Shown: positions 51 through 44,150 of the stretch, in pieces | Numbering within the stretch: the first letter of the stretch is position 1 | Layout of the letters: each line of letters begins with the position of its first letter | Origin: Neisseriaceae bacterium CLB008 | GTDB taxonomy: Bacteria > Pseudomonadota > Gammaproteobacteria > Burkholderiales > Neisseriaceae | NCBI GenBank assembly: GCA_041228285.1 | Contig: CP166133.1 | Coordinates: 558,001-622,000 of the forward strand | DNA: 64,000 nucleotides | Direction: 5' to 3' | Translations under genes and position numbers: made by a program | Notes under the pieces: model-generated | The model's input: the letters and a program-made list of their open reading frames with translations, nothing else | The model's database searches: none | What the model was told of the DNA's origin: nothing

Positions 51-1454
51 ATGGACGACAGTGATTTAATGGTAGAAGGTAGGGATGACTTAGGTCTGCG
101 GGTGCCGCCTAACTCTTTAGAAGCAGAGCAGTCGGTATTGGGCGGCCTATTGTTGGATAATTCGGCTTGGGAGCGCATTGCTGGGATTGCCAACGAGCAC
201 GACTTTTATCGCCAAGAACACCGCATTATTTTTAATGCGATTGAAAAATTATTAGAACAATCTCGTCCTGCTGACGTGGTGACGGTGAAGGAAGCGTTGG
301 AAAGCGCCGGCAACATCGGTAATGTGGGTGGCCTATCCTATTTGGTGAGTCTGGCTCAAAACACGCCGTCGGCGGCCAATATTCGCCGCTATGCCGAGAT
401 CGTGCGCGAGCGCTCGGTGATGCGCCAGCTGGTTGAAGTCGGCACGTCGATTGCCGACAGCGCCTATAACCCAGAAGGACGAGACGCCAGCGAATTGCTG
501 GATGAAGCTGAGAACAAGGTGTTTCGCATCGCTGAAAGCGCTTCGCGTTCGCAGCAGGGCTTTTTGGAAATGCCTAATTTATTGAAAGAGGTGGTTGAGC
601 GCATCGACAATCTGTATTCGCGCGACAATCCCGATGAGGTCACTGGTGTGCCGACGGGCTTTGTGGACTTGGACGCCAAAACCTCAGGCCTACAGGCGGG
701 TGACTTAGTGATTGTGGCCGGTCGTCCGTCTATGGGTAAAACCGCCTTCTCGATGAATATTGCCGAACACGTGGCGGTGGAGTGTCACCTGCCGGTGGCG
801 GTGTTCTCTATGGAGATGGGTGGCACCCAGCTGGTGATGCGGATGCTGGGTTCAGTGGGGCGCTTGGATCAACATGTGCTGCGTACGGGCCGTTTGCAAG
901 ATGAACACTGGGGCAAGCTCAACGATGCCGTGGTGAAGCTGTCTGACGCGCCAATGTTCATTGATGAAACGCCAGGCTTGACCGCTTTAGAGCTGCGCGC
1001 TCGGGCGCGTCGTTTGGCGCGTAACTATGGCGGCAAGCTGGGCTTGATCGTGATCGACTATTTACAGCTGATGAGCGGCTCGGGCAAGGGCAACGACAAC
1101 CGGGCCTCTGAGCTGGGCGAGATTTCGCGCTCGCTTAAAGGCCTGGCGCGGGAACTACAGGTGCCCGTGATTGCGCTGTCGCAGCTGTCGCGTTCGGTTG
1201 AGCAGCGTACCGATAAACGCCCGATGATGTCTGACTTACGTGAATCAGGCGCAATTGAGCAGGACGCCGACATCATCATCTTTATGTATCGCGATGAGTA
1301 TTACAACGCTGATACCCAGTTTAAGGGCCTGGCTGAGGCCATTATTGGTAAGCACCGTAACGGCCCAACCGGTAAGGTGTATTTATCGTTTGTGGGCATG
1401 TACGCTAAGTTTGAAAATGCGGCCTTACCCGACGGTGGTTGGGAAAGCGAGTAA
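51..1454 (+). CDS. dnaB: Replicative DNA helicase DnaB
   Basis: Hexameric 5'-3' helicase that unwinds the replication fork. The N-terminal domain contains the family's LEAEQSVLGG stretch. The RecA-like C-terminal domain shows Walker A GRPSMGKT (around residue 224), Walker B LIVIDYLQLM and the late signature DLRESGAIEQDAD. ATG at 51 is chosen because AGAGG lies 5 nt upstream; an in-frame ATG at 30 would add 7 residues but has no ribosome site. The 467-aa length fits the family. The gene lies upstream of a pilin operon, as in Neisseria, but with two opposite-strand genes in between. It is followed at once by a strong terminator. Confidence 0.97.
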   Translation: MDDSDLMVEGRDDLGLRVPPNSLEAEQSVLGGLLLDNSAWERIAGIANEHDFYRQEHRIIFNAIEKLLEQSRPADVVTVKEALESAGNIGNVGGLSYLVSLAQNTPSAANIRRYAEIVRERSVMRQLVEVGTSIADSAYNPEGRDASELLDEAENKVFRIAESASRSQQGFLEMPNLLKEVVERIDNLYSRDNPDEVTGVPTGFVDLDAKTSGLQAGDLVIVAGRPSMGKTAFSMNIAEHVAVECHLPVAVFSMEMGGTQLVMRMLGSVGRLDQHVLRTGRLQDEHWGKLNDAVVKLSDAPMFIDETPGLTALELRARARRLARNYGGKLGLIVIDYLQLMSGSGKGNDNRASELGEISRSLKGLARELQVPVIALSQLSRSVEQRTDKRPMMSDLRESGAIEQDADIIIFMYRDEYYNADTQFKGLAEAIIGKHRNGPTGKVYLSFVGMYAKFENAALPDGGWESE

Positions 1455-1462
1455 GACACAAG

Positions 1463-1489
1463 AAAAAACCGACCTAGGTCGGTTTTTTT
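1463..1489 (+). terminator. dnaB terminator (bidirectional)
   Basis: A-run, then the perfect palindrome around ACCGACCTAGGTCGGT, then a T-run. It ends dnaB and, read on the other strand, can also end the converging RidA/amine oxidase unit. Confidence 0.9.
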
Positions 1490-1506
1490 GTGGCCGCGGC
1501 CGGCAT

Positions 1507-1995
1507 TTAGGCCTTAGGCACTTTGGCCGCAATCACTTCAATCTCAATCAGCCATTCTGGCATCACCAAGGCCTTAATTTCGAACGCAGAGCGTGCCGGG
1601 GTGTTGGGCTGTGCCTTGGTGCCAAAAAACTGGCTGTAGCCCTTCATGAAGCCGGTAAAGTCCATTTTGTTGCCCTGTTTTGGGTCAGCAACCAAAAAGA
1701 CCTGCATTTTGACCACGTCTTCTAGGCTAAGGCCTAGGTTTTTGAGGTTGCCTTCAATGGCGCGCAAGATATTCACCGTTTGCTGCTCGGTATTGGCACC
1801 ATAGCTGCCGTCGGCTAGCTTAGGCGGCACCACGCCGCTTAAATAATAGGTGGTGGCGCCAGCAGGAATGGTGACGGCGGTGGAGATGGGAAAGTTGGGC
1901 ACCGGTTGGCGCTCAATTTTGGGCGTTTGGGCCAGCGCCAGTGAGCTGGTGAGGGTGAGGCCCAAAGCCGCTAGGGTGAGTGGGGTAGAATGCAT
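1507..1995 (-). CDS. Exported RidA/YjgF-family protein
   Basis: Rid-family proteins hydrolyse reactive imines or enamines released by amino-acid-oxidising enzymes. Here the Rid domain is preceded by a Sec-type signal peptide (MHSTPLTLAALGLTLTSSLALA followed by Q), so the protein is probably periplasmic. The conserved arginine is in PARSAFEIKAL and the acidic residue in LIEIEVIAA. The start at 1995 has a perfect AGGAGGT 5 nt upstream; a longer frame from 2016 lacks one. 162 aa. It lies downstream of, and on the same strand as, a Tat-exported flavin amine oxidase, which suggests it processes that enzyme's imine product outside the cytoplasm (inference). Confidence 0.85.
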   Translation of the reverse strand: MHSTPLTLAALGLTLTSSLALAQTPKIERQPVPNFPISTAVTIPAGATTYYLSGVVPPKLADGSYGANTEQQTVNILRAIEGNLKNLGLSLEDVVKMQVFLVADPKQGNKMDFTGFMKGYSQFFGTKAQPNTPARSAFEIKALVMPEWLIEIEVIAAKVPKA

Positions 1996-2036
1996 CGATA
2001 ACCTCCTGATTGACATGGGGGAAACAACATCATCAT

Positions 2037-2070
2037 AACAGCAGTGCCTTTAATGGGCACTGCTGTTTTT
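2037..2070. other. Intercistronic hairpin between amine oxidase and RidA genes
   Basis: Inverted repeat AACAGCAGTGCC / GGCACTGCTGTT with a 7-nt loop. The T-run lies on the plus-strand side, so for the minus-strand operon the hairpin has no U-tail. It may stabilise mRNA or attenuate rather than terminate. Confidence 0.6.
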
Positions 2071-2079
2071 ACTTCAGGC

Positions 2080-3678
2080 TTAGCGGGTTTGAACGATTTT
2101 TTGATGCAGTCGTGTGATGGCGTCTAGGCTTGACGTGATCGCGCCTTCTAGCCAGCCGTTCATGTAAGAGGCGTGTTCGCCAGCCAATACGATGCGGCCA
2201 TCAATGTCACATAGGTTGCGATAATGCTGTTCGCGTTGGGTGTCGGTCCATTGAGTGTAGCCGCCGCGAATCCAGGGGACTTTAGCCCAGGCGGTGCTGT
2301 AGCCGTTGTCGAATTCTTGCGGTGCCTGGGGATGGACTTTGGCCACATAGCTGAGTGCCACTCGGTTGCGCTCTTGTAGCGACATGTCGGTAAAGGTTTG
2401 CCCAGTAGGGCCAGACATGTAGCCGTTTAAGACGACGCCCTTGCCCTTACTGAAGTAGTCGTCGGCCACACAGGGGTAGGCGATGTGGGTGTTGGGCATG
2501 TCGGTCAGCGTCATGCCGCCATAAATCGCTTCATCCTGTTCCCAAAAGCGGCGTTTGTATTGCGCCCCCACTTTTACCGTTGGGTCGTAGGCAGGTGTAT
2601 CAATGGCGGTTTTGAGCTTCGGGCCGACTTCTAGGTTCATTCGACGCAGCATGGGTAGCGGGATGGTGCACACACACCATTGCGCCGACTCGGTGCGCAT
2701 TTGGCCGCCGCGGCTGTGGTCTTTATAGCTAACCTCAACGCCTTGCTCTGATTGTTTGATGTCGGTGATTTCAGCATGGTATTGAATCACGCCTTTGAGC
2801 TGGTTGGCAAAGGCGCGACCAATCATTTCCATGCCGCCCCTAGGTTCAAACATGGTTTGTTGGAACATGTGGTTAAAGTGGTAGCTCATGCTTTGCCAAA
2901 TGCGGCTGTCTAGAATGTCTTTGAGGGCGAGCGGCTGGGTGGTAATCGGCCCGCCAGAGAGGCCGCCACCCAAGGTTTTGGCGTAGCCACGGCGATTGCT
3001 CGAGGCGATGCCTTTGCTGTAGGTGTAGTCATTATTGAGTGCGCCGTGGGATTTCAGGGCTTCCAACAGTATTTCTTTGTCTTGACGGCTAATCTTCTGA
3101 TCAAGCTGGTTGGCATGGGTGGCCTTAGCCAATAGTTCTGAAATTTGGCCGTTGAAGTCGCTAAAGACGTCACGATAGCGCTGTGGTTTGCCGCCAAAGC
3201 CTTTTTCGCTGTGTAAATAAGCGTTGAAGTTGATCTGTACAAACGGGTCTAGCTTCACGCCCAGCTCTTGGCAATAGTTTAAAACGTTTTGGTGATGGTA
3301 GGGGATGCGCCAGGCGCCTGCGTTTAGGAACATGCCTTGGTCAAACTGACACGCTTGAGTGACGCCGTCGGTGTCGGTGTGTCTGTCACCTCCATAAATA
3401 CTCCAGGCGCGGCCGCTGGGACGGTTCTGGAATTCCAGTATTTTGACCTTGTAGCCTGCTTTACGTAGCTCATAAGCCGCGCTGAGGCCTGCAACGCCTG
3501 CGCCTAAAATCAAAATGGTGGTTCCTTTAGGCGCGCCTTTTAAATCCATTTTAACGGCTGGGCTTAAGCCTGCGGCAAAGCCCATGGTGCTCATGGCCTG
3601 ATACATGACGGAGGCGCCAGCACCGTAGCCGATGATTTTTAATAAATCGCGTCTGGTCATGGGTTCATTGTGTGACAT
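2080..3678 (-). CDS. Tat-exported flavin amine oxidase (L-amino-acid oxidase/monoamine oxidase family)
   Basis: FAD-dependent oxidase expected to convert an amine or L-amino acid to an imine plus H2O2. The N-terminus has a twin-arginine motif (TRRDLLK, about residue 8) before a hydrophobic stretch, so it should be exported folded with its cofactor. The Rossmann FAD motif is GAGVAGLSAAYEL (about residue 58), followed by a GRA motif, and the C-terminal FAD-contact segment is GWLEGAITSS. 532 aa. AGGAG lies 7 nt before the ATG. The substrate cannot be read from the sequence. It is co-directional with the exported RidA gene downstream, an oxidase-deaminase pairing. Confidence 0.88.
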   Translation of the reverse strand: MSHNEPMTRRDLLKIIGYGAGASVMYQAMSTMGFAAGLSPAVKMDLKGAPKGTTILILGAGVAGLSAAYELRKAGYKVKILEFQNRPSGRAWSIYGGDRHTDTDGVTQACQFDQGMFLNAGAWRIPYHHQNVLNYCQELGVKLDPFVQINFNAYLHSEKGFGGKPQRYRDVFSDFNGQISELLAKATHANQLDQKISRQDKEILLEALKSHGALNNDYTYSKGIASSNRRGYAKTLGGGLSGGPITTQPLALKDILDSRIWQSMSYHFNHMFQQTMFEPRGGMEMIGRAFANQLKGVIQYHAEITDIKQSEQGVEVSYKDHSRGGQMRTESAQWCVCTIPLPMLRRMNLEVGPKLKTAIDTPAYDPTVKVGAQYKRRFWEQDEAIYGGMTLTDMPNTHIAYPCVADDYFSKGKGVVLNGYMSGPTGQTFTDMSLQERNRVALSYVAKVHPQAPQEFDNGYSTAWAKVPWIRGGYTQWTDTQREQHYRNLCDIDGRIVLAGEHASYMNGWLEGAITSSLDAITRLHQKIVQTR

Positions 3679-3974
3679 GTTTAATCTCCTAAATCTAAGA
3701 CGCCAAGGTGCGGCGTGAATGAATAAGGTGAAGGCTCAGCAGGATGATGCCGCGTGATGTGCAGGACTCAAGGCTCATCGTGATGATACTTGTAGCATAT
3801 ACTTTAAATACATATGATGTAAGCTTAATTAATTATAAATTGTTGTTTTTACATAATTTTACTTATATTTTTTGTGCAGATGTTCTGTCGATTTTCATCG
3901 GTGGCGTGGTTTTGGTGCACAATAAAATTTTGTCTTGCGATTGATATATGTTTTTGTCATTATGGTAGAGGGGC
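3679..3974. other. AT-rich intergenic region before the pilin operon
   Basis: About 300 bp between the divergent amine oxidase and pilin genes. It is markedly more AT-rich than its neighbours and should hold both promoters, but no convincing -35/-10 pair was picked. A 66-codon frame inside it (3744-3944) has no ribosome site and looks spurious. Confidence 0.5.
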
Positions 3975-3983
3975 GTGCGCATC

Positions 3984-4616
3984 ATGGGGCATAAAAACAT
4001 GCAGGGTGTGGGATTAATTGAGCTATTGCTGGTGGTGGCATTATTGGCGGCCATGAGCGTGGGTGTACTCTGGAGCGTGCAACGTGGCGTGGCGCAGCAG
4101 CAGCTTGGGCTAAGCATGCGCCAGCTAGGCCAAACCGTGCAGTTTGCCCAAGCAGAAGCCAAGCGTCTGGGTAGAAGCGTTTGGCTGTGCCCAGTGCAGC
4201 GGCGTGTGGATGGCCGCATTAATGGCTGCGTGCGCCAGCTAAGTGAGGACATGTGGGCTCAAGGCCTCTTGGTGTATGCCGATAAGCCGAGCTTGAATGC
4301 TGGCGTCTACGATGCAGGCGAAGTGGTGCGCACGGCCTTTGTTGAGGAAGGTCGGCATCGCCTGCAGGTGCGCCAATGGCGAGAGCAGACGCATCCTCAG
4401 CGTTTCATGCTTTTGCCGCTGGCCGAGCGCCAGCCGCAAATCCGCTACGGCGCATGGGGTTGGGGCGAGCGAGAGCCAGTGTGGCTACAGTTGCAGCTGT
4501 CTGTGCCTGGGCAATTGGGTCGTTGCGAAACCCTGCTGATGCCGCCAACTGGGCCGCCGCAGCGATGCCAAGACGACAGTGGCGGCGCTAGGGAGGTTTT
4601 ATGTCAGTGCTTTTAA
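3984..4616 (+). CDS. fimT: Type IV minor pilin, FimT/GspH (PilH) type
   Basis: Minor pseudopilin of the type IV pilus. The type III leader MGHKNMQG is cut before VGLIELLLVV, with the usual glutamate at mature +5, followed by one hydrophobic helix. AGAGGGG sits 10 nt upstream of ATG 3984; a GTG at 3975 is too close to it. About 210 aa. First gene of a four-gene overlapping operon that matches the neisserial dnaB-linked pilH-I-J-K locus in order. These proteins prime pilus assembly and influence DNA uptake and adhesion in the family. The C-terminal half is divergent; a pair of cysteines near the end may form a disulfide. Confidence 0.82.
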   Translation: MGHKNMQGVGLIELLLVVALLAAMSVGVLWSVQRGVAQQQLGLSMRQLGQTVQFAQAEAKRLGRSVWLCPVQRRVDGRINGCVRQLSEDMWAQGLLVYADKPSLNAGVYDAGEVVRTAFVEEGRHRLQVRQWREQTHPQRFMLLPLAERQPQIRYGAWGWGEREPVWLQLQLSVPGQLGRCETLLMPPTGPPQRCQDDSGGAREVLCQCF

Positions 4617-42550: not shown

Positions 42551-43792
42551 ATGAGTAAGCAGGTGGTGATCGTTGGTGGTGGCGTAATTGGTTTAAGCAA
42601 TGCCTACGCCTTGATTAAGGCTGGCGCCAGCGTGACGCTGGTGGAGTCGGACTCAGAAGTGGCGATGGGGGCCAGCTTCGCCAACGGTGGGCAGTTGAGC
42701 TATCGCTATGTGTCGCCCTTGGCTGATGCTGGGGTGCCACTGCAGGGGTTGAAATGGATGGGTAAGGAGGATTCGCCGCTAAACTTCAAGCTGCGCGCGT
42801 CGTTCAAGCAATGGTCGTGGTTGCTGCAGTTTACCGCGGCCTGTACGCGGCGCACCAATCAGGTGAATGGTGCCCATATCCTCAGGTTATCGCTTTTGAG
42901 CCAAGATATGCTGAATCAGTGGCGCACAAGCGGTGACATTGGCGATTTTCACTGGCGCCGTTCGGGCAAGATGATCATTCATCGCGATCAAGCCAGCTTT
43001 GAAAAAGCCAGCCAAAGCGTTGATCCAGAGTTTCAACAGGTATTAAATAACCGCGAGCTATGCGATTTAGAGCCTGCCCTCATTCACATTCAAGATCAGT
43101 TGCGCGGCGCCATTTATGCACCGGCCGATGAGACGGCAGACTGCCATGCCTTTTGCGTGCAGCTATTGGCCTATTTGAAACAGCAGCCGCAGTTTCGTCT
43201 CTTGACCGAACGCCAAGTAACGGGCTTTGCCACGGCGGGTGAGCGCATATTGGGCTTAGAAACGTCCTCTGGGCGTATTGAGGCAGATGAATTCATCGTT
43301 GCTGCAGGCAACGGTAGCGTGCCGCTATTGGCCAAACTGGGCATTAAGGTGGCGGTGTATCCGCTCAAAGGCTATAGCCTGACGCTGCCGTTCCCAGAAG
43401 CGGCGCACGTGGTGCCCAGCATCAGCGTCACCGATTATGGTCATAAAATCGTCTACGCCAAGCTAGGCGATGAATTAAGGGTGGCGGCGATGGTCGACAT
43501 TGGCTATGAAGATCAGGGCCTAAGGGCCAACCGGGTGGCGGCTTTAAAGCGTACCGTGCGGGCGAGTTTTCCTAAATTAGGCGCCTTAGATGAGGCCACC
43601 GCCTGGAGCGGTTTGCGCCCTTCAACGCCCAAAGGCCCGCCGATATTGGGGCGGACAAAATACACCAATTTATGGTTAAATATCGGCCATGGCAGCCTTG
43701 GGTTTACCCTTGCGGCTGGCAGCGCCATGGTATTGACCCATTTGGTTACCGGCGCTGAGGCGTCTATTTCACTCACAGGATTAACAGGATAA
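42551..43792 (+). CDS. dadA: D-amino acid dehydrogenase DadA
   Basis: FAD enzyme that oxidises D-amino acids to imino acids, passing electrons to the respiratory chain. N-terminal VIVGGGVIGLSNAYALIKAG binds FAD; ASFANGGQLSYRYVSPLAD and the C-terminal WSGLRPSTPKGPPILGRT and NIGHGSLGFTLAAGSA are DadA marks. 413 aa. It is followed 4 bp later by ridA, whose product would hydrolyse the imine. No strong ribosome site precedes the ATG. Confidence 0.92.
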   Translation: MSKQVVIVGGGVIGLSNAYALIKAGASVTLVESDSEVAMGASFANGGQLSYRYVSPLADAGVPLQGLKWMGKEDSPLNFKLRASFKQWSWLLQFTAACTRRTNQVNGAHILRLSLLSQDMLNQWRTSGDIGDFHWRRSGKMIIHRDQASFEKASQSVDPEFQQVLNNRELCDLEPALIHIQDQLRGAIYAPADETADCHAFCVQLLAYLKQQPQFRLLTERQVTGFATAGERILGLETSSGRIEADEFIVAAGNGSVPLLAKLGIKVAVYPLKGYSLTLPFPEAAHVVPSISVTDYGHKIVYAKLGDELRVAAMVDIGYEDQGLRANRVAALKRTVRASFPKLGALDEATAWSGLRPSTPKGPPILGRTKYTNLWLNIGHGSLGFTLAAGSAMVLTHLVTGAEASISLTGLTG

Positions 43793-43796
43793 AACA

Positions 43797-44150
43797 ATGA
43801 CAATCAAACGCAATAACCCTCAAGCCCGTTTGGCCGCTAGCGTTGAATACGGTGGTTTGGTTTACCTTTCTGGCCAAGTGCCGACTGATTTAAGCGTGGA
43901 CGTGACGGCCCAAACAGAAGACGTTTTGGCTAAGATCGACGCTTTGTTGGCAGAGGCCAACAGCGACAAAACCCGTATTTTGTCGGCTCAAATTTGGATC
44001 AAAGACATGGCGCGCGATTTTGCTGCGTTTAATGCCGTTTGGGAAGCTTGGATGCCGCTAGGCCACAGCCCCGCGCGTGCTGCGGTACAGGCTGAAATGG
44101 CCCGCCCAGACGTGTTGGTTGAAATCATGGTGACTGCGGTACAGAAATAA
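43797..44150 (+). CDS. ridA: RidA-family 2-iminobutanoate/2-iminopropanoate deaminase
   Basis: 117 aa cytosolic Rid protein. YGGLVYLSGQVP, LAKIDALLAEAN and SPARAAVQAEMARPDVLVEIMVTA contain the family's arginine and glutamate. It sits 4 bp behind dadA and would convert the imine formed by DadA to a keto acid and ammonia. No signal peptide, in contrast to the RidA-like protein encoded at 1507-1995. Confidence 0.92.
   Translation: MTIKRNNPQARLAASVEYGGLVYLSGQVPTDLSVDVTAQTEDVLAKIDALLAEANSDKTRILSAQIWIKDMARDFAAFNAVWEAWMPLGHSPARAAVQAEMARPDVLVEIMVTAVQK

Follow-up and report, generated by a model that had tools for sequence, protein, structure and literature searches.

A predicted extracytoplasmic L-amino acid oxidase-Rid pair without its usual cytochrome c in a Neisseriaceae bacterium

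Rid proteins have mainly been studied as cytosolic guards, and a widespread exported branch of them beside exported L-amino acid oxidases (LAAOs) would mean that imine damage is controlled outside the membrane too. The window analysed here, a stretch of 64,000 nucleotides from Neisseriaceae bacterium CLB008 (contig CP166133.1), raises this very question, since it holds a Rid gene with an apparent export signal of its own next to the gene of a Tat-type flavoenzyme: where do the two proteins act, on which substrate, and what accepts the electrons? From what we infer about localisation, substrate and electron acceptor, as set out below, it is probable that the pair constitutes an extracytoplasmic module for L-amino-acid deamination with local imine hydrolysis, which derives from a cytochrome-linked operon and for which O2 is the likelier acceptor.

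The gene pair, its oxidase and its distribution

Both genes lie on the reverse strand where the initial annotation had put them: lao (2080..3678) encodes a 532-aa FAD L-amino acid oxidase/dehydrogenase of the Tat type (PF01593, E 2e-53), and rid (1507..1995) a 162-aa precursor of a Rid3-type imine deaminase (PF01042, E 6e-17). As in the lao-cccA-ridA operon, a Tat-type LAAO gene adjoins a Rid gene on the same strand; the gap between the two genes measures 84 bp and contains no cytochrome gene, and likewise none is found inside the gap of the congener G1216. The pair is flanked by forward-strand ORFs at 30-1454 and 3975-4616, which we take to be dnaB and a pilin-like gene, respectively. A hairpin of 12-13 bp stands between lao and rid (2037..2067, reverse strand), without a T run on the operon strand, and its position is occupied in the congener by a hairpin of other sequence; a terminator-like hairpin follows at the 3' side of rid (1463..1488, reverse strand), sites of this kind numbering 6 in the region vs. 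3.7 expected. No sigma-70-like promoter was found within 1400-4000. The source genome amounts to 3.26 Mb in a single contig.

The oxidase begins with MSHNEPMTRRDLLK, that is, with the twin-arginine motif TRRDLLK that had been read there before, and its Tat signal region (3571..3678, reverse strand) reads MSHNEPMTRRDLLKIIGYGAGASVMYQAMSTMGFAA. Among 34 aligned LAAOs, R10 is invariant and R9 at least 90% conserved; a hydrophobic region is also present and the source genome encodes TatC, which together with the motif mark the protein as a predicted Tat substrate. The closest structure by sequence is 2jae, the L-amino acid oxidase of Rhodococcus opacus (RoLAAO; E 1.3e-86), and it is also the closest fold to the predicted model (pLDDT 90.4; Foldseek TM 0.86/0.95, 34% identity). 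R124 and Y420, hand-matched in the 2jae alignment, correspond to RoLAAO Arg84 and Tyr371, which we assume to be the carboxylate clamp, and in the 34 aligned sequences R124 is invariant and Y420 at least 90% conserved. In NCBIfam, no LAAO match at cut-off was found among the best 25 of 46. The "amine or amino-acid" oxidation of the initial annotation can therefore be narrowed: "amino acid" fits better because the closest relatives are the Rhodococcus LAAO and, for the partner, the Rid3 proteins PFL_1385 and PSPTO_3006, and "amine" is imprecise. A general amine oxidase was accordingly set aside as the lead reading, since L-amino acids are the substrates suggested both by the closest structure and by the conserved Arg and Tyr.

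The association of the two genes is more than chance and is under purifying selection. The congener (L240, a locus added later and outside the survey described below) has the same pair with the same neighbours, and comparison of the window with it gave a dN/dS ratio of 0.03 for LAAO, where dS (1.33) approaches saturation. For Rid, the ratio was 0.08 in the mature part and 0.41 in the signal, which has retained its character and not its sequence. G1215 (81% complete), the third member of the genus to be searched, yielded no LAAO match. Elsewhere, the LAAO gene is sporadic: counting the source genome itself each time, it was found in 5 of 200 genomes of the order sample (E <=1e-20) and, at E <=1e-60, in 3 of 149 near relatives, 6 of 369 genomes of the class sample and 28 of 398 of the phylum sample, while 32 plasmid records carry a relative (E <=1e-80), all below 60% identity. 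Of the 369 class genomes, searched once for each protein, five encode both, one Rid only (G341), one LAAO only (G437) and 362 neither, a co-occurrence (Fisher p 6e-10) that counts the source genome, ignores relatedness (two of the five double-positive genomes share a genus) and scores only the best candidates per genome.

The missing cytochrome c and the electron acceptor

For the survey, LAAO genes were taken from named genome contigs, from whole-genome draws at the level of order, class and phylum, and from a draw of one genus (g387, the genus of G820), in which 76 of 298 genomes had a LAAO match. The filter applied to the named contigs (E <=1e-50 over >=400 model positions) reduced 70 loci to 46 loci with 47 genes, hereafter the named survey. 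After duplicates had been collapsed and the truncated copies L001, L089, L090 and L092 removed, the survey totalled 157 LAAO genes; a partial gene of G1202 (L230, too short for the filter) and a split gene of G1041 stand outside it.

The usual third gene of the window's LAAO clade, which the initial annotation had missed, encodes a cytochrome c. In the named survey, a cytochrome c (CxxCH) gene lies directly downstream of 35 of the 47 LAAO genes, all from Pseudomonadota; five Bacillota loci have LAAO and Rid without a cytochrome, and at five Bacteroidota loci both a Rid and a cytochrome are lacking. At L115, L119 and L121, the stretch that separates LAAO from Rid gives a weak cytochrome match (21-25 bits) with CxxCH, and these three loci were not counted as cytochrome-bearing. 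In a quick LAAO tree (107 clustered rows from 157 sequences, L124 left out, with SH-aLRT as the sole support measure), the window and the congener are nested in a clade of 50 rows (SH-aLRT 100); in 46 of these rows, the LAAO gene is followed directly by one for a cytochrome c. Two others (L034_748 and L126_711) carry a cytochrome c gene on the LAAO strand, some 2 kb upstream of where the LAAO ends, which leaves the window and the congener as the only clade rows without such a gene. A long common stem (0.74 changes per column) leads to these two, whose placement inside the clade is poorly resolved. We infer a loss of the dedicated cytochrome over its original absence; that is, the module would descend from a lao-cytochrome c-(rid) operon whose cytochrome disappeared in the window's genus.

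The choice of acceptor decides whether extracellular amino acids feed respiration or yield H2O2. We favor O2 as the electron acceptor of the window LAAO, with another cytochrome as the main rival, because the cytochrome is missing and because of a pattern reported in passages of PMC12224317: many Tat flavoproteins with an adjacent Sec-exported cytochrome c (CytC) are dehydrogenases highly specific for their own CytC, and most of the tested Tat flavoproteins without an adjacent CytC are oxidases. Of the two features of the former type, a Tat signal and an adjacent gene for a Sec-exported CytC, the window has the signal, and the CytC gene is missing. The LAAO may nonetheless have stayed a dehydrogenase that hands its electrons to a cytochrome c from another locus of the genome, with little H2O2 formed, and this alternative, which we regard as rather unlikely, draws on the clade itself, whose other members nearly all have the cytochrome gene at the locus, and on one published Tat enzyme without adjacent CytC that reacted poorly with O2 (same passages). 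The source genome has eight stretches that weakly match the profile of the LAAO-type cytochrome, the best of them (45.8 bits) inside an open frame of 455 codons, and the profile search found no close copy of this cytochrome elsewhere in the genome. The published specificity for the neighbouring CytC speaks against recruitment of a distant one, as does the prevalence of oxidases among the tested enzymes that lack it.

The LAAO sequences bear on the same alternative. The remaining 48 rows of the clade define 145 sites with a conservation of 90% or more. The window and congener enzymes differ at 22 and 23 of them, respectively, vs. a median of 3 and a maximum of 13 differences in these other rows. 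The changes, which count against a retained dehydrogenase role, include Pro to Ala at position 120 in both enzymes, Ala being the residue in 47 of the 51 rows outside both cytochrome-bearing clades (three of these 51 have the weak cytochrome match mentioned above). Trp123, present in 54/54 rows of the cytochrome-bearing clades, is kept in both enzymes, which speaks for the dehydrogenase. A general convergence on the residues of these 51 rows was considered as well and set aside (5/13 vs. 27/90, Fisher p 0.54, not significant), an outcome that counts against the reading we prefer. With O2 as the favored acceptor, the H2O2 anticipated in the initial annotation holds up as the likelier option for the window LAAO; the cytochrome c gene usual in its clade is absent here, and H2O2 is thus not to be assumed for the family. 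The enzymes of the window's genus, being without this cytochrome, offer a chance to find what decides between O2 and a cytochrome as acceptor.

Function and export of the Rid protein

By sequence and by fold (model pLDDT 89.0, with a low-confidence N-terminus), the PDB entries closest to the window Rid are 9bkc (PFL_1385) and 9bka (PSPTO_3006), at about 40% identity, and on these best matches the protein groups with published Rid3 members; none of its three NCBIfam matches reaches the cut-off. R135, the equivalent of the catalytic Arg105 of RidA, is invariant in 19/19 aligned Rids, and this arginine and a glutamate 16 residues past it are both invariant in 18 aligned Rids of the group. According to excerpts of PMC5619798, imines made by an LAAO are deaminated by PFL_1385 and PSPTO_3006, and a ridA mutant was complemented by four of six plasmids. 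The imine clean-up beside the oxidase that had been proposed from the start is thus supported as far as sequence can support it, and the Rid would hydrolyse the released imino acid to a 2-oxo acid and ammonia, as its Rid3 relatives suggest.

It is improbable that Rid is instead a structural partner bound to LAAO and not an imine scavenger. Such a role would have a parallel in Chlamydomonas, for which PMC5053998 cites a periplasmic complex of LAAO and RidA; the invariance of the Arg and Glu and the deaminase activity of the Rid3 relatives speak against it, as do the many LAAO genes without a neighbouring Rid. For instance, of the 35 LAAO genes in the named survey that come with a cytochrome, 21 lack a Rid immediately downstream (three of them, i.e., those of L032 and L033 and one L034 gene, have an upstream Rid), which indicates that Rid is not essential.

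The rid ORF opens at 2016, and the start with a Shine-Dalgarno sequence is the ATG at 1995, preceded by AGGAGG (2002..2007, reverse strand) with a spacer of 6 nt, which bears out the "perfect ribosome site" of the initial annotation. The start at 2016 (MSIRRLS..., with a charged n-region) was rejected because AGGAGG precedes ATG 1995 and no Shine-Dalgarno sequence precedes the next upstream in-frame start. The resulting N-terminus (signal at 1930..1995, reverse strand) is MHSTPLTLAALGLTLTSSLALA followed by Q, with a putative cleavage after A22 assigned by inspection and a hydropathy rule; it looks Sec-like, with a hydrophobic core and A-L-A before the Q, yet its n-region is uncharged (no Lys or Arg). 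In the congener, the corresponding N-terminus is MRLTSTTLATLSLALASPLLLA followed by Q, which keeps the hydrophobic core and the LLLAQ end despite a diverged sequence.

To place this signal among its relatives, a Rid was counted when it lay downstream on the same strand with its domain starting <=1.2 kb from the LAAO end. The same pair proved frequent: Rid is directly downstream in 114 of the 157 LAAO genes, and the hydropathy rule called a signal in 83 of these 114 Rids (76 Sec-like and 7 with a lipobox). The upstream Rids of L032, L033, L034 and L126 are signal-like and are excluded from the 114. Among 30 fetched PF01042 loci, taken from a longer list, the rule called a signal in 3 of the 26 proteins away from LAAO (one convincing lipoprotein and two doubtful cases) and in 4/4 near LAAO. 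The 31 Rids without a signal all come from the single genus g387, presumably Pseudomonas given N-termini near-identical to those of the PFL_1385 and PSPTO_3006 chains; 29 derive from the genus' own draw, the source of 71 of the 114 pairs (signal-bearing in 42 cases and signal-free in 29), and two from the phylum draw. Signal-free homologues, which the initial annotation had named as a finding that would speak against it, do therefore occur, in 31/114 adjacent pairs, all of one genus and beside LAAOs with a degenerate-looking Tat signal.

That is, the 31 signal-free Rids are exactly those adjoining LAAOs that start with RREA[LF], a motif picked after inspection of the sequences. These LAAOs have charged residues in the h-region (e.g., MGLTRREALSSIAAVGGEKAVKDALAVLGLGPSSHRR), with a median of 4 charges per 22 residues (range 1-4) vs. 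1 (0-5) in the 120 others measured, and the two groups cannot be told apart by peak hydropathy (median 1.42 vs. 1.41). By charge alone, 5 of the 31 LAAOs of the signal-free group would pass as intact and two other Rid-paired LAAOs (L035 and L006) would fail. Given this overlap, the post-hoc motif and the equal hydropathy, loss of Tat function in the RREA[LF] group is best taken as a suggestion. By the rule, a signal is present in every one of the 83 downstream Rids that stand outside the degenerate-Tat group, including those next to four LAAOs that were not scored intact: L035 and L006 for their charge count, L115 because no N-terminus was recovered, and L045 because its start was placed too far upstream, TRRKLL being present. 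The signal-free class occupies 13 tree rows in a single clade (SH-aLRT 100), which indicates that the absence of the export signal goes back to a single evolutionary event, and the pair apparently switched compartment together, once. The shared extracytoplasmic site first proposed for the window pair appears to hold on these grounds, i.e., the recurrence of Tat plus Sec or lipoprotein signals in the relatives and the pairing of signal-free Rids with degenerate-Tat LAAOs. Accordingly, a group in which both proteins are seemingly unexported makes a ready natural control.

A cytoplasmic Rid, whose N-terminus would be an uncleaved hydrophobic tail or the product of a mis-called start, accords with the uncharged n-region, with a signal assigned by inspection and hydropathy, and with the existence of a signal-free Rid3 group, and is nevertheless very improbable in view of the ribosome site before ATG 1995 with none before the next upstream in-frame start, the core and LLLAQ end retained in the diverged congener, and the 83/83 signals outside the degenerate-Tat group.

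A flavoprotein that bears FAD folds before crossing the membrane and thus takes the Tat route, and a small trimer-forming protein may cross unfolded by Sec. Under the reading that we prefer, that of an exported module, the LAAO would fold, load FAD and cross by Tat, the Rid would be exported by Sec, and in the periplasm the LAAO would oxidise L-amino acids to imino acids, as its family and conserved residues suggest, for the Rid to act on. Reoxidation of the reduced flavin would then fall to O2, with H2O2 as the product, or, with lower probability, to another cytochrome. A bolder proposal, that LAAO and Rid3 form a compartment-locked unit whose export is gained or lost jointly and that the window's genus, once its cytochrome gene had gone, switched from a cytochrome c-dependent dehydrogenase to a periplasmic oxidase that uses O2 and releases H2O2, is put forward tentatively and is less likely than not.

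Comparison with known systems

The pairing of LAAO and Rid is itself already in print. The clustering of FAD amine oxidase genes with RidA, and sometimes Rid3, genes is described in PMC4433059 (excerpt). The closest bacterial counterpart is the lao-cccA-ridA operon of Gluconacetobacter diazotrophicus PAL5, which likewise has a Tat-type LAAO gene and a ridA gene in one cluster and, unlike the window, a cytochrome c gene as well; the passages of PMC5053998 used here assign the LAAO to the periplasm and give a signal to the LAAO and not to its Rid. They also report a Tat signal for both of the LAAOs compared, RoLAAO among them, and the absence of IAA in lao mutants, so that Gluconacetobacter needs this related operon to make a plant hormone. 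In Chlamydomonas, LAO1 and LAO2/RIDA are periplasmic (PMC10805672, excerpt); this system is alike in extracellular L-amino acid oxidation with a periplasmic RidA partner, although it is eukaryotic and the likeness is drawn from its published description.

Among solved proteins, RoLAAO (2jae) is closest to the window LAAO, its solved chain lacking the export region (the match begins at chain residue 3). The published imine deaminases PFL_1385 and PSPTO_3006 are closest to the window Rid, and they differ in their starts: the PFL_1385 chain (165 aa) has a signal-like start, as the window Rid does, whereas the solved PSPTO_3006 chain (144 aa, match from residue 4) has none. The text of PMC5619798 contains no word starting with "signal" or "periplasm", and no report of bacterial Rid export was found among the titles and abstract openings listed from the open-licence literature. 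The CytC-dependent amine dehydrogenases of the NicA2/Pnao type (PMC12224317, excerpt) are Tat flavoenzymes like the window LAAO, whose relatives have an adjacent exported cytochrome c and which itself has none. Against this background, two points are new: the matched lack of export signals in LAAO and Rid within one clade, and the fact that the LAAO locus of the window's genus has no cytochrome gene.

Hairpin between lao and rid

An intergenic hairpin separates lao, the gene of the Tat-type L-amino acid oxidase (LAAO), from rid both in the window (2037-2067, minus strand) and at the lao-rid locus of the congener (L240, about 3092-3130, plus strand); the two sequences differ. The hairpin of the window has no T run on the operon strand, and the 96-nt lao-rid region there folds better than shuffled sequences (z -3.1); the congener region folds no better than its shuffles (z -0.4). 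The hairpin may set the ratio of lao to rid mRNA.

Rid proteins with other neighbors

Two flavin dehydrogenase-Rid pairs are found in the window, lao-rid and a second one at 42551-44150 (plus strand), in which a D-amino acid dehydrogenase gene (42551-43792, plus strand; NF001933 score above the cut-off) is followed after 4 bp by the gene of a 117-aa Rid without a signal (43797-44150, plus strand). This pair is likely a cytosolic counterpart of the lao-rid pair. The same genome holds ten PF01042 stretches in total, including three within a single 430-codon frame (3x-Rid protein; G000:C1:1677119-1678318).

Judging from sequence, exported Rids may also have partners other than LAAO, since the Rid of locus L133 (G628:C1:1643303-1643629), whose N-terminus (MKPMFRTGGVAAMAAGMMALGGC...) carries a lipoprotein signal graded as convincing, has no LAAO nearby. 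A Rid3 with a signal-like start (L093, genome G341) has, within 3.5 kb around it, no further separate ORF of at least 120 aa and only one overlapping frame, and its genome gave no LAAO match at E 1e-60.

Cytochrome matches at LAAO loci and LAAO relatives on plasmids

Cytochrome c matches flank the LAAO on both sides at five Psychrobacter loci (L023, L027, L029, L030, and L038) and likewise at L237 of genome G627 (the longer copy of L107), and none of these six loci has an adjacent Rid. At three divergent LAAO loci (L115, L119, and L121), a CxxCH protein with a weak match (21-25 bits) sits between LAAO and the exported Rid, and perhaps represents a second, distant cytochrome type with the same role.

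In Mesorhizobium, Rhizobium, and Microvirga, LAAO relatives also occur on large plasmids (records H1-H7, H10, H12, and H13), several of which come from root nodules. These relatives are of interest because the Gluconacetobacter lao-cccA-ridA operon has a role in IAA production, with lao mutants making no IAA (PMC5053998).
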